Assembly: GCF_900114495.1 (NCBI RefSeq)
Contig: NZ_FOZI01000001.1
Coordinates: 453,469-517,468 of the forward strand
Reading direction: 5' to 3'
DNA: 64,000 nt
Source: Dyella sp. OK004
Lineage (GTDB): Bacteria > Pseudomonadota > Gammaproteobacteria > Xanthomonadales > Rhodanobacteraceae
Below, piece after piece: positions 14,815 through 49,311 of this stretch (position 1 is the stretch's first letter; the number at the start of each line of letters is the position of its first letter). The position numbers were made by a program, and so were the translations under genes. Under the pieces are notes generated by a model, which was given only the letters and a program-made list of their open reading frames with translations, had not been told where the DNA came from and did not search any database.

Positions 14815-16020
14815 TCAGAGTCCGGCGGCGTGCTCCGCCAGACGGCGCTTGATGGGTGACAGGCGATTGAGCAGGCGCACGCCGAGGCCGCGCGCGGCGA
14901 CCAGCGGCGCGGACTGCCAGCTGTAAATGCGTGCCAGCGTGTCGAAGCTCATCGCATCGAGCGTGTCCGCACTGCGGCGACGACGCGCGTAGCGGCGCAA
15001 GACATGTTCGGCGGCGATATCGCGCCCGGCATCGCGCGCGGCGACCAAGGTGTCGCGCAGCTCGGTAACGTCGCGCAAGCCGAGATTCACGCCCTGCCCG
15101 GCCAGCGGATGCACCGCATGCGCGGCATCGCCGAGCAGCACAAAGCGTTCGGCTTGATAGCTTTCGGCCAATTTCAAGCGCAACGGAAAAGCCGCGCGTG
15201 GCGTGGTGGCAGTGATGCGGCCGAGACGGAAATCGCTGGCGACACCCAGCTCAGCGAGGAAGGCTTGATCGTCGAGCGCGAGCACGCGTCTCGCCTCCTC
15301 GTCCGGCAGCGACCACACGATGGAACTGCGGCCATCAGCGAGCGGCAACAACGCCAGCGGACCGGTGGCGATGAAGCGTTGCCAGGCGGTGCCTTCGTGG
15401 GCGCGCTCGGTAGTGACATGCGCCACCACGGCGCGCTGCTCGTAATCGCGGCCGCGCGTCTCGATGCCGGCCAGCTTGCGCAGCGGGGAGCCGGCGCCGT
15501 CCGCGGCCACCAGCAGCTTCGCGGCAAGCAGATCGCCATCGGCCAGTTCGAGCTGGATGCGATCTTCCTGCGCTTCGAAACCGCGCACATCGGCCGGGCA
15601 AAGCCGGCGCACACCGGCGGCCTCGAGTGCCTGCCACAAGCGCCACTGCACCAGATTGTTCTCGACGATGTAGCCGAGCAGCTCGCGTCCTTCGTCGGCC
15701 GCATCGAAATGGATGGCTGCGCCGTTCTCGGCATCCCACACATGCATATGGGCATAAGGGCCGGCGCGGGAATCGCGGATGGACGTCCAGACGCCAAGAT
15801 CATCGAGCAAGGCGATGGAAGATGGGGCCAGACCGACGACGCGCAGATCGACTTCGTCAGTGACGGACCAGGGTGACGGCTCTCGCGCTTCCAGCAGTGT
15901 GGTGGCGAAACCGGCCTTGGCCAGCGCGAGCGCGGCGGCGGCGCCAACCATGCCACCGCCGACGACGGCGACATCGAGCGCAGGGCCGCGCCGGTTGCGA
16001 ACCGTGGACGGCGTGCTCAT
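14815..16020 (-). CDS. UbiH/UbiI-family FAD-dependent monooxygenase (second of pair)
   Basis: The 401-residue flavoprotein hydroxylase starts with a Rossmann dinucleotide motif (VAVVGGGMVGAAAALALAKA). It carries the family motifs VAADGAGSPLRK and LGDAAHAVHPLAGQGVNLGL. It would hydroxylate the aromatic ring of a ubiquinone precursor. The start at 16020 overlaps the stop of the upstream hydroxylase by 4 bases; the much longer open frame upstream lies over that gene and is discarded. By analogy with the ubiH-ubiI order of Escherichia coli it may be UbiI (C5 hydroxylase), but sequence alone does not fix the position hydroxylated. Confidence 0.87.
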   Translation of the reverse strand: MSTPSTVRNRRGPALDVAVVGGGMVGAAAALALAKAGFATTLLEAREPSPWSVTDEVDLRVVGLAPSSIALLDDLGVWTSIRDSRAGPYAHMHVWDAENGAAIHFDAADEGRELLGYIVENNLVQWRLWQALEAAGVRRLCPADVRGFEAQEDRIQLELADGDLLAAKLLVAADGAGSPLRKLAGIETRGRDYEQRAVVAHVTTERAHEGTAWQRFIATGPLALLPLADGRSSIVWSLPDEEARRVLALDDQAFLAELGVASDFRLGRITATTPRAAFPLRLKLAESYQAERFVLLGDAAHAVHPLAGQGVNLGLRDVTELRDTLVAARDAGRDIAAEHVLRRYARRRRSADTLDAMSFDTLARIYSWQSAPLVAARGLGVRLLNRLSPIKRRLAEHAAGL

Positions 16021-17252
16021 GGCAAACGCTCCAATACGGCGCGCGGCGGGTCGCCGCGGAAGCCCATGCCGCGCTTCGCCAGCAGGCGTTGCAGCGGCGG
16101 CACGCGATCGCAGGCAAGCAGGGCGAGCGAGCGCAGCGGCCCCAATAACGGCTGCGGCAGGCAAGCCAATTGGACGAGGCCGTGGCTCATCGTCATGGTG
16201 CCTTCGCGATCCGGCGCGCGACGCGCGGCGTAGCGTTCGAGCAAGTCGGCTGCGCCGGGGTCTTCCGCACTGGCCACCAGCTCGGCCAGGGTCAGTGCAT
16301 CGCGCAGGCCGAGGTTGAAACCCTGGGCGCCGATCGGGTGCACGGTCTGTGCGGCATTGCCGACCAGCACGGCACGCGGGCCGATCAGGCGCTGCGCGGC
16401 GACGCGCTTGATCGCATAGGGATGGCGCTTGCCTGGACGACCAAGACGGCCGAGACGCCAACCGAAGCGCTGCTGTGCCCAGGCGATGAATTGTTCGTCG
16501 TCCATCGCAGCGACGGCGTCGCCCTCTTCCGTCGGTACCGTCACGACCAGACCACAGCGACGCTCCGCCAGCGGAAGCATGGCGACGGGGCCGTTGTCGG
16601 CGAATCGCTCGTAGGCACGGTGGGCATGATCGCGTTCGGGGGTCACGGTGCAGACGAACAAGGTCCGATGGTAATCGTGGGTCTCGGCTTCGATGCCCAG
16701 TTGTTCGCGCACATACGAAGCCGTGCCGTCTGCACCGACCAGCAGTGAGGCATCGACGGCCTGCGTGCCTTCGGCGGTGCGGATCTGTGCGCGCCAGCCA
16801 TCGGCGAGCGGCTCCAGCGCTTCCAGCTTGGCTGGGGCCAGACGCTTCAAATGCCGGCACTCGTCGAGGCGGCGCAGTAGCGCCGCGCCCAACTCGCGAG
16901 CTGGCAGGGTCCAGCCGAGCGCATCGACACCTTCGCGGGCGGCATCCATACGGGCGCTGCCGAAATCGCCGGCGCGGCTGACATGGATGTGCCGGATCGG
17001 CGTGGCCAGTGCGGCGGCATGGCGCCAGATGCCGATGGCATCGAGACCGTTCACCGTGGCGCGGGCCAGGGCCAGGTTGCGTTCGTCGTAACTCGGCTGG
17101 GCATCGACGCGCGGTGCAGCCGCTTCGACCATCACGGCCTCAATGCCTGCAGCGTCGAGCGCGATGGCGAGGCTGGCGCCGACCAGGCCGCCGCCAACGA
17201 TGAGAACCGGCTGCCGGGCGGGTACTCCAGCGGAGGTGGGTGGGGTAGTCAT
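16017..17252 (-). CDS. ubiH: UbiH-type FAD-dependent ubiquinone hydroxylase
   Basis: The 411-residue protein has an N-terminal FAD motif (VLIVGGGLVGASLAIALDAA), the DG motif VGADGTASYVREQL and the C-terminal GNAAQTVHPIGAQGFNLGL. This is the UbiH/Coq6 signature. It acts at the membrane face on polyprenyl phenols in aerobic ubiquinone synthesis. The start at 17252 precedes the Rossmann fold by 15 residues; the frame continues upstream without family residues. It is translationally coupled to a second hydroxylase gene. Confidence 0.85.
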   Translation of the reverse strand: MTTPPTSAGVPARQPVLIVGGGLVGASLAIALDAAGIEAVMVEAAAPRVDAQPSYDERNLALARATVNGLDAIGIWRHAAALATPIRHIHVSRAGDFGSARMDAAREGVDALGWTLPARELGAALLRRLDECRHLKRLAPAKLEALEPLADGWRAQIRTAEGTQAVDASLLVGADGTASYVREQLGIEAETHDYHRTLFVCTVTPERDHAHRAYERFADNGPVAMLPLAERRCGLVVTVPTEEGDAVAAMDDEQFIAWAQQRFGWRLGRLGRPGKRHPYAIKRVAAQRLIGPRAVLVGNAAQTVHPIGAQGFNLGLRDALTLAELVASAEDPGAADLLERYAARRAPDREGTMTMSHGLVQLACLPQPLLGPLRSLALLACDRVPPLQRLLAKRGMGFRGDPPRAVLERLP

Positions 17253-17355
17253 GGGGCCGCATGATACGCGCTGTGGGCGCCCGCCCTCATCAGGGTCGCG
17301 CCCAGTTGGGATAGACTTGCAATCTGCACTTTGCGCAACATATTTGGAGCAAGTC

Positions 17356-17961
17356 ATGGCTACGACGCAAACCCAGCGCCTGGGCATTTTCCTGGCCCTC
17401 GCCCTGGTGATGGCCGCCACCCGCGTGCATCTCTCGCTGTTCCATCACGACGTGTGGGACGCCTCCTGGGGCATCTTCTTCCTCGCGGGCTTCTGGCTGC
17501 GCGGCTCGGTGCGCTGGGCGTTCCCGCTGCTGATGGCCGAGGCGGTGCTGGTCGACTATCTGGTGATCAGCAACCAGGGCATCAATTTCTGGGATCACTA
17601 CTGCGTGTCGGCGGCCTACTGGTTCCTGGTGCCGTCGTATTTCAGCCTGTGGATGGGCGGCAGCTGGATGGCTCGCCAGAAGGCCGGTCTGAACCTGCGC
17701 GGCCTGGGTCTCGCCGCCGTGGCGGTGCTGGCCAGCTTTGCCGCGTGCTACGTGATTTCCAACGGCAGCTTCTACTGGCTGAGCAGCAGCGTGCCGCAGC
17801 CGCGCAGCGTCGCCGCGTGGCTCTCGAACCTGGGTGACTGGTACCTGTTCTTCCTGCAGACGATGGCGCTGTATGTCGCGCTGGGTTTGGTGGTGCATGC
17901 ACTGGTTGTGCAGCTGGGGCGCACGTTGAACGACGCCGACTCGTCCAAGTTGTCGCGCTGA
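17356..17961 (+). CDS. btuM: BtuM-like cobalamin uptake membrane protein
   Basis: The 201-residue protein has about six membrane segments and no soluble domain. Size and topology fit the BtuM family, solitary ECF-type S-components that move vitamin B12 across the inner membrane. The key feature of that family is a cysteine that coordinates cobalt and removes cyanide, followed five residues later by a tyrosine. Here Cys83 and Tyr88 (HYCVSAAY) show that spacing, and H30/H31, D67 and R150 are near other positions I recall as conserved. GGAG precedes the ATG. The gene starts 103 bases from divergent ubiH and ends 8 bases ahead of a cobalamin adenosyltransferase gene, which supports the role. Confidence 0.68.
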   Translation: MATTQTQRLGIFLALALVMAATRVHLSLFHHDVWDASWGIFFLAGFWLRGSVRWAFPLLMAEAVLVDYLVISNQGINFWDHYCVSAAYWFLVPSYFSLWMGGSWMARQKAGLNLRGLGLAAVAVLASFAACYVISNGSFYWLSSSVPQPRSVAAWLSNLGDWYLFFLQTMALYVALGLVVHALVVQLGRTLNDADSSKLSR

Positions 17962-17969
17962 GATAACGC

Positions 17970-18536
17970 GTGGGTAATCGTCTTTCGAAGATCTATACGC
18001 GCACCGGCGACGACGGCAGCACCGGCCTCGGCGACGGCTCGCGCGTCGCCAAGGATTCGCTGCGCGTTTCCGCCTACGGCACCGTCGACGAGCTCAACAG
18101 CACCATCGGTATGGTGCTCGCCGCCGATGGTGTGGGCGAAGCCGTGCGCGAAGTGCTGACCCAGGTGCAGCACGATCTGTTCGACCTGGGCGGCGAGCTG
18201 TGCATTCCCGGCATGGCGATGGTCGAGGACGCCGATATCGATCGGCTCGAGCAGGTGTTGGACGGCTTCAACGATCCGCTGCCGCCGCTGAAGGATTTCA
18301 TCCTGCCGGGTGGTGGCATGGCCGCCTCCTGCTGCCACCTGGCACGCACGGTGTGCCGCCGCGCCGAGCGCGAGGTGATTGCGCTGGGCCGTGTGGAAGA
18401 AGTGCGGCCGCAGGCGCAACGCTATCTCAATCGCCTGTCTGATCTGCTGTTTGTGATCTCGCGCGTGCTGGCCCGTGCCAGCGGCCATGGCGAGGTCCTG
18501 TGGCAGCACGAACGCCGCCGCAAGCCGCAAGCCTGA
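17970..18536 (+). CDS. Cob(I)alamin adenosyltransferase, PduO type
   Basis: The 188-residue protein is a PduO/MMAB-type ATP:cobalamin adenosyltransferase. The N-terminal ATP-binding segment (YTRTGDDGSTGLGDG) and the later block RTVCRRAEREVIAL are diagnostic. It attaches the adenosyl group to reduced cobalamin, making coenzyme B12. The start is the GTG at 17970, 8 bases after the BtuM-like gene, so import and activation of B12 appear coupled. Confidence 0.92.
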   Translation: MGNRLSKIYTRTGDDGSTGLGDGSRVAKDSLRVSAYGTVDELNSTIGMVLAADGVGEAVREVLTQVQHDLFDLGGELCIPGMAMVEDADIDRLEQVLDGFNDPLPPLKDFILPGGGMAASCCHLARTVCRRAEREVIALGRVEEVRPQAQRYLNRLSDLLFVISRVLARASGHGEVLWQHERRRKPQA

Positions 18537-18543
18537 GCGCCGC

Positions 18544-19464
18544 ATGCTGCGGCTGTATACCCATCCCAGTTGTCTCGAACATGATCCGGGCCCGGGTCAT
18601 GCCGAGTCGCCGGCGCGTCTGCGCGCGGTGTTGCAGGCGCTGGATCAGGACCGTTTTGCGGCGATAGATCGCGTCGAGGCACCGCGCGTTACCCGCGAAC
18701 AATTGCTGCGCGTACACGACGCCGCTTATGTCGACCGCATCCTCGGCACCGTGCCCACTAGCGGCACGGTGAGGCTGGATGAGGACACTCTGATGTCTCC
18801 CGCTTCGGCCGAGGCTGCCCTGCGCGCCGCCGGTGCGGCAGTGGCTGCGGTGGATGCGGTGATGGGGCCGCGCGGCGGGCATGCTTTCTGCGCGGTTCGC
18901 CCGCCGGGGCATCACGCCACGCCGGACCAGGCGATGGGGTTCTGCCTGTTCAATAACATCGCGGTCGCGGCGGCGCATGCACTGGCCGAACATGGGCTCA
19001 AGCGCGTGGCCATCGCCGATTTCGATGTGCACCACGGCAACGGCACGCAGGACATCTTCGAACGCGAGCCGCGCGTGCTGTTCATTTCGAGCCATCAATC
19101 GCCGCTGTATCCCGAAACCGGGCGCGAGGACGAGCGGGGCGTGGGCAACGTGGTCAATGCCCCGATGTCGCCCGGCGATGGCTCGTACGAGTTCCGCGAG
19201 CTGTGGGAAGGCGCCCTGCTGCCTCGCCTGCATGCGTTCAAGCCGCAGCTGGTGCTGGTGTCTGCTGGTTTCGATGCCCATCGCAACGATCCGCTGGCCG
19301 ACCTGCGGCTGGGCACCGAGGACTACGCCTGGGTCACCAGCCGCCTGGTCGACCTGGCCCATACCCATGCCGGCGGACGGCTGGTTTCCAGCCTGGAGGG
19401 CGGCTACGACCTGCAGGCCCTGGCCGCCAGCGCCAGCGCGCATGTCGGCGAGCTGATGCTTTGA
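18544..19464 (+). CDS. Histone-deacetylase-superfamily deacylase
   Basis: The 306-residue protein has the zinc-dependent HDAC fold: GHAFCAVRPPGHHA holds the paired active-site histidines, DFDVHHGNGTQDIF a metal-binding Asp and His, and VSAGFDAHRNDPLADL the other metal Asp. Bacterial members act on acetylated polyamines, acetoin-related proteins or lysines. It begins 7 bases after the adenosyltransferase gene, so it probably belongs to the same transcript, though a functional link to B12 is not evident. It stops 5 bases from convergent msrB. Confidence 0.88.
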   Translation: MLRLYTHPSCLEHDPGPGHAESPARLRAVLQALDQDRFAAIDRVEAPRVTREQLLRVHDAAYVDRILGTVPTSGTVRLDEDTLMSPASAEAALRAAGAAVAAVDAVMGPRGGHAFCAVRPPGHHATPDQAMGFCLFNNIAVAAAHALAEHGLKRVAIADFDVHHGNGTQDIFEREPRVLFISSHQSPLYPETGREDERGVGNVVNAPMSPGDGSYEFRELWEGALLPRLHAFKPQLVLVSAGFDAHRNDPLADLRLGTEDYAWVTSRLVDLAHTHAGGRLVSSLEGGYDLQALAASASAHVGELML

Positions 19465-48940: not shown

Positions 48941-49311
48941 AGGTGGAGTCGGCCTATAAGCCGGGTTCTGTACGCCTTGCAGCGCGACAGTCATTCCTCT
49001 CGGCCTGGCGTCACCGCCAGGCTCCAGCAACCTACCCGGGAACAACGCGGGCCGCGTTATCGTTCCCCTATTTGGTCTTGCTCCGAGTGGGGTTTACCGT
49101 GCCACGCGGCGTTAGCCCCGCGCGCGGTGCGCTCTTACCGCACCATTTCACCCTTACCACGCACATCCGGAGATGCCGTTCGGCGGTTTGCTTTCTGTTG
49201 CACTGGCCGTCGGCTCACGCCGCCCAGGAGTTACCTGGCACTCTGCCCTATGGAGCCCGGACTTTCCTCGATGCGCTTACGCGCGACGCGACTGCCCGGC
49301 CGACTCCGCCG
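48941..49311 (-). ncRNA. rnpB: RNase P RNA (M1 RNA), class A
   Basis: The RNA component of RNase P removes 5' leaders from tRNA precursors. Universal class A blocks are seen on the minus strand: GAGGAAAGTCCGGGCTCC near the 5' end, GGTAAACCCCA, AGAGGAATGACTGTC and ACAGAACCCGGCTTA near the 3' end. The two ends pair (GAGTCGGCC with GGCCGACTC). Exact ends are estimated from this pairing and the upstream -10 element. It is flanked by rsmI and mraZ on the same strand. Confidence 0.93.

Follow-up and report, generated by a model that had tools for sequence, protein, structure and literature searches.

The BtuM homologue encoded at positions 17356 to 17961 (+ strand) of the window, as we term the whole 64,000-nucleotide stretch of Dyella sp. 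OK004 DNA analyzed here, probably imports a corrinoid which the product of the adjoining gene, a PduO-type adenosyltransferase, would trap as adenosylcobalamin, the pair acting outside riboswitch control and beside a second, riboswitch-controlled BtuM (designated B) of the same genome. Within BtuM, the window protein falls on a separate branch, here designated A, and it is the divergent one of the two copies in its genome, a circumstance which the original prediction for this locus had missed. BtuM itself, the link between btuM and btuR, and the idea of trapping are already known from Rempel et al. 2018 (PMC6072759). That study describes growth complementation, cysteine ligation, base-off binding, and decyanation for BtuM of Thiobacillus denitrificans (BtuM_Td), reports that in T. 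denitrificans, as in the majority of other hosts, btuM lies together with btuR, an adenosyltransferase gene, and proposes that BtuR brings about metabolic trapping. Added by the present comparison are branch A, its PduO partner, the changes in a loop and at an Asn-bearing position, and the lack of a riboswitch at the 40 loci scanned; the BtuM literature searched, with partial coverage, yielded nothing on BtuM-PduO pairs or on branch A, and the homologue list belonging to PMC6072759 may include these genes.

The open reading frame of the window BtuM begins with ATG and specifies a product of 201 residues which gave no match at E<=1 against the Pfam and NCBIfam models, and its membership in the family therefore rests on matches to PDB sequences and on fold. 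A phmmer search of PDB sequences returned BtuM (8c7p, 8ovv) as the sole sequence at E<=1 (E 2.1e-26), the match spanning residues 4-189 of 201 and thus nearly the full length. Pairwise alignment places Cys83 (17602..17604, +) on the cobalt ligand Cys80 of BtuM_Td and Tyr88 (17617..17619, +) on the pocket residue Tyr85, and the Cys-x4-Tyr spacing by which this 201-residue protein had been recognized as BtuM-like can be read in the sequence as these two residues. The numbering of BtuM_Td was obtained by counting along the printed PDB chain, and H28, D67, C80, Y85, and R153 agree with PMC6072759.

A predicted model of the window BtuM, built from a 16-row alignment, is of moderate confidence (pLDDT 70.2, pTM 0.68). 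Foldseek returned one match to it at E<=0.001 (8ovv, E 8.0e-7), and VIA-align gave Z 15.5 to both 8c7p and 8ovv (175 residues for 8c7p), followed by 4huq_S (Z 10.1), which we take to be an S-component structure, FolT (8.9), and ThiT (8.5 and 8.4). Kinship with chain M of 5x3x, titled cobalt ECF transporter CbiMQO, was not accepted (Z 6.9 by VIA-align). The window protein is thus predicted to adopt an S-component-like six-helix fold which matches BtuM best, and, judged from alignment and model together, it belongs to the BtuM family. The stretch around Cys83 (residues 81-90) has a mean pLDDT of 56, and the geometry of the pocket consequently lies beyond the resolution of the model.

Like BtuM_Td (PMC6072759; 8c7p and 8ovv), the window protein comprises approximately 200 residues, has a predicted S-component fold, and retains the ligand cysteine, the Cys-x4-Tyr spacing, and the Asp67 position, while its genome likewise has no EcfT and its gene adjoins that of an adenosyltransferase. 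It differs in having 36% identity to 8ovv (by Foldseek), Asn in place of Arg153, and a loop before the cysteine that is longer by three residues, and its locus differs in that the partner is PduO-type rather than BtuR/CobO-type and in that btuB is not present alongside.

The stop codon of the BtuM gene (17959-17961) is separated by an 8-base gap (17962..17969, +) from the GTG at 17970 which opens the partner ORF (17970..18536, +). The 188-residue product of this ORF is classed as a PduO-type ATP:cob(I)alamin adenosyltransferase, an activity predicted from its matches to PF01923 (E 9.5e-60, 202 bits, with a curated cut-off of 24) and TIGR00636 (203.7 bits, cut-off 108.45); its best PDB match is 2zhy (E 3.6e-67, residues 1-182). 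The claim that the membrane protein gene sits 8 bases ahead of such an enzyme is borne out by these positions and scores. The product is in keeping with the PduO-type family (PF01923; 2zhy), but its gene is placed directly after a BtuM gene, and in 56 of 63 distinct A sequences a script located the PduO start motif, at offsets from BtuM that range between -8 and 187. The third gene in the same direction (18544..19464, +), located 7 bases after the PduO gene, encodes a histone-deacetylase-family protein (PF00850, E 1.7e-90) and is likely to be co-transcribed with the pair; such a gene lies downstream in 59/63 distinct A sequences. The divergent upstream neighbor (16017..17252, - strand) encodes a UbiH-type ubiquinone hydroxylase (NF004356, 440.8 bits, cut-off 384) and occupies this place in 60 of the 63 distinct A sequences; it is a syntenic marker and lies outside the BtuM-PduO system. 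A promoter scan of 17150-18600 returned no site, and the one terminator-like match, at 17372-17384, inside the BtuM gene, was dismissed as its score was at the level of shuffled sequence. Elsewhere in the window, a bacterial RNase P RNA of class A was noted at 48941-49307 (- strand).

The second BtuM of the genome (locus L116, G000:C8:399677-400249) lies 71 kb from A and is 41% identical to it. The two are homologous, share the same cysteine, and each have an adenosyltransferase gene downstream; unlike A, the B module has the order riboswitch-btuB-btuM-cobO, its BtuM keeps Arg153 and the short loop, and its partner belongs to the CobO family (PF02572). A BtuM match was obtained in at least 169/233 family genomes by searches with an A-type profile and then with the B protein, the A2-profile search having missed weaker B matches; among the matches listed, 101 genomes have A only, 24 have B only, and 40 have both. 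In a tree of 98 rows, built by a quick method with SH-aLRT as its only support measure, branch A forms a clade (SH-aLRT 100) of 32 rows, which include 29 A rows of the family (two of them identical), taken from 60 distinct sequences, and three rows of family f2, which belongs to the same taxonomic order and may be Xanthomonadaceae.

The positions of Cys80, Asp67, and Tyr85 are each kept in 60/60 distinct A sequences, and a lost cysteine or a decaying A copy was ruled out on this conservation of the cysteine. The His28 position of BtuM_Td is Leu in the window protein by pairwise alignment and His in 57/60 A sequences and in 21/32 A rows of a second alignment, an assignment which varies with gap placement. 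Two features set branch A apart. Asn158 (17827..17829, +) stands at the position of the pocket residue Arg153, which is Asn in all 60 A sequences and in 32/32 A rows (the three of f2 included), Arg in 19/21 and Asn in 2/21 B rows, and Arg in 30/38 and Asn in 0/38 non-A rows from other families. Furthermore, Phe78-Trp79-Asp80-His81 (17587..17598, +), immediately before Tyr82-Cys83, falls in the lengthened loop: the columns of Asp67 and Cys80 are 15 residues apart in 32/32 A rows and 12 apart in 21/21 B rows of the second alignment, the spacing in the 38 rows from other families being 12 (28 rows), 13 (4), 21 (3), or 11 (3).

Because of the Arg-to-Asn change and the altered loop, the substrate of A could differ, and BtuM-A might import another corrinoid (cobinamide, another cobamide, or base-on or adenosylated cobalamin), with Asn158 and the FWxH motif marking its pocket and B taking ordinary cobalamin. 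Cobinamide is, according to PMC6072759, bound by BtuM_Td itself, which is consistent with such a division, as is the loop that is three residues longer in A than in B. However, the same source reports that the R153A variant of BtuM_Td still binds and decyanates cobalamin, for which reason Arg153 is not treated here as defining for BtuM, and Asn is also present in two of 37 B sequences. Moreover, A-only genomes are common (the 101 noted above), and three of them which were checked (G019, G066, and G097, each with a single BtuM match among the matches listed, typed A by score) possess MetH and have no FecCD, EcfT, or CbiC match, from which it follows that A probably handles usable cobalamin. We therefore consider import of a different corrinoid unlikely and retain import of cobalamin followed by trapping as the preferred reading.

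The BtuM-PduO pair is kept in 15/15 named relatives of the window locus (Dyella, Rhodanobacter, and Fulvimonas, plus one Candidatus Eremiobacteraeota), and coordinates place A before PduO on the same strand in 85/85 family genomes in which both places are listed, a count outside which stand 56 A genomes without a listed PduO place. Such retention argues that the pair did not arise by chance. B is followed by CobO on the same strand in 64/64 genomes with both places listed, and the cross-pairings A-CobO (0/49) and B-PduO (0/41) are absent from the genomes with both places listed. Automatic adjacency on the fetched loci assigned PduO to 60/63 distinct A sequences and CobO to 34/37 B sequences. 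The misses (L008, L011, L031, and L034 for A; L052, L077, and L106 for B) were set aside as boundary artifacts in which the matched stretch overlaps BtuM: at each of the four A loci the PduO start follows the BtuM stop by 5-8 bases, and in the genomes of the three B loci (G086, G051, and G003) CobO adjoins BtuM-B by coordinates.

As A is a single clade, the 85 genomes do not represent 85 independent events, and the gene order could be inherited synteny without functional coupling, BtuM-A having landed once before a housekeeping adenosyltransferase. The shared neighborhood of the clade (UbiH, PduO, and the histone-deacetylase-family gene) would fit one such origin. PduO, which is present in at least 226/233 family genomes and, among the matches listed, occurs in 65 genomes without an A match, is independent of BtuM-A; CobO is over its cut-off in 74/233 genomes and, among the matches listed, occurs without a B match in 10. 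This explanation is nonetheless improbable, since BtuM proteins outside branch A also precede PduO (L146, L151, L152, and L153), and since BtuM-B keeps CobO, a member of a different Pfam family, in 64/64 genomes. On the tree, whose partner labels were set by hand from neighboring genes (BtuM_Td being labeled CobO after PMC6072759), the PduO label undergoes three changes by parsimony, of which at least two are forced by starred branches, some rows being long branches. The non-A BtuM-PduO loci are independent support for the pairing.

These non-A loci derive from a class-level sample in which BtuM matches were found in 37/369 genomes and 38 loci were taken. BtuM precedes PduO at the four non-A loci as well as at the three f2 loci of type A, CobO lies in the stretch at 19/38 loci, at one of which (L129) it is approximately 1.5 kb off, and neither is in the stretch at 12/38, some of which are at contig ends. 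Two genomes of one genus code in another family (G382 and G494) carry PduO-linked loci (L152 and L153) beside riboswitch-btuB-btuM-CobO loci (L134 and L138), a two-module layout which uses a BtuM outside branch A and in which the L152 and L153 stretches hold no riboswitch. As a separate observation, six genomes of genus code g8 (G069, G071, G073, G078, G079, and G083), which are without BtuM-B among the matches listed, have a CobO match that starts 194-395 bases beyond a cobalamin riboswitch, an arrangement resembling an operon from which btuB and btuM-B have disappeared.

An Rfam cobalamin riboswitch was detected at 14/14 btuB-linked loci and at 0/40 A loci scanned (6 + 20 + 14, with 39 distinct BtuM sequences, the scan of the named-relative loci covering 11 of 15); none was found across the whole window, and the genome holds at least three. 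On the count of 0/40, the A pair lies outside recognizable cobalamin riboswitch control and may be constitutive. This difference suggests that A could represent a steady housekeeping module and B a B12-repressed scavenging module. PduO linkage is not always free of a riboswitch, since at L146 and L151 PduO is located within a riboswitch-btuB-btuM cluster. No btuB was found at the A loci; the gene lies at the B locus and is upstream of B in 33/37 sequences (it was not found at L060, L073, L074, and L076). The absence from the A locus of both btuB and a riboswitch, the two usual marks of B12 uptake, counts against a role of the pair in import and trapping; it also means that annotation guided by those marks would overlook A.

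Searches of the window's genome for the BtuC family (FecCD), for EcfT/CbiQ (PF02361), and for CbiC, which belongs to the B12 ring pathway, all came back empty. PF02361 was matched in 0/21 genomes, this one included, in accordance with the predicted independence from an ECF module, while FecCD was over its cut-off in 13 of the 21 genomes checked. MetH is present, together with a methylmalonyl-CoA-mutase-family gene in an open frame of 1165 codons, which presumably resembles a fused isobutyryl-CoA mutase. The importer families searched were BtuM, FecCD, and EcfT, and in the three A-only genomes checked these families provide no inner-membrane candidate other than branch A. We infer the importer role of A from this genomic context. 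The draft assembly G138 has MetH and no match to BtuM (among the matches listed), FecCD, EcfT, or CbiC, which indicates that unrecognized importers exist and weakens the argument from missing importers. A 2009 survey (PMC2667541) leaves B12 uptake open in some B12 users without BtuFCD, Xanthomonas axonopodis among them.

A further alternative holds that BtuM-A is a membrane decyanase or a B12 receptor working for BtuM-B or for some unrecognized importer, rather than a transporter. S-component folds are tied to receptors in PMC11109136, and the cysteine is kept in A. We regard this as very improbable, given that A is the only listed BtuM in many genomes and that an E. coli mutant defective in uptake shows B12-dependent growth when it has the closest characterized relative (PMC6072759).

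In the import-and-trapping scheme that we favor, a corrinoid would enter the periplasm through a BtuB encoded elsewhere and be bound by BtuM-A, for which Cys83 would, by analogy with BtuM_Td, provide the cobalt ligand. BtuM-A would strip the cyano ligand where one is present, decyanation by A being likely on this analogy, and would, independently of any ECF module, carry the corrinoid through the inner membrane. PduO would then adenosylate the imported corrinoid, which would be held as adenosylcobalamin and could serve the methylmalonyl-CoA-mutase-family enzyme. The original prediction had envisaged import, decyanation, and activation as one channeled route: its tight gene pair stands, with an 8-base gap in the window and with PduO following A in every family genome where both places are listed, the idea of linkage and trapping was already published, and the analysis lends no support to physical channeling from BtuM-A to PduO. 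A stronger formulation, in which branch A has its own corrinoid pocket (Asn158 and the FWxHYC loop) and physically couples import, ligand removal, and adenosylation via PduO, independently of riboswitches and separately from the riboswitch-controlled BtuB-BtuM-CobO route of the same cell, in a split that arose at least twice, appears quite unlikely. The presence of two BtuM copies per cell, each with a different adenosyltransferase family, would allow metabolic trapping to be examined cleanly by genetics.

Two further forms of BtuM-like protein were observed in the course of this analysis. L085 (3237-3857, G031) and L086 (3003-4019, G035) encode BtuM-like proteins with Leu at the position of the cysteine, a residue called invariably conserved across the BtuM family in PMC6072759; at L085, btuB is directly upstream of the Leu-bearing gene, and the L085 stretch contains one cobalamin riboswitch and the L086 stretch two. 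Lastly, four loci (L112, L113, L114, and L115, of G090, G101, G150, and G053, respectively) harbor an additional, third BtuM gene, inserted in tandem after BtuM-B and before CobO; on the tree this copy groups with neither A nor B, and it has Ser at the Asp37 position in 4/4 cases.
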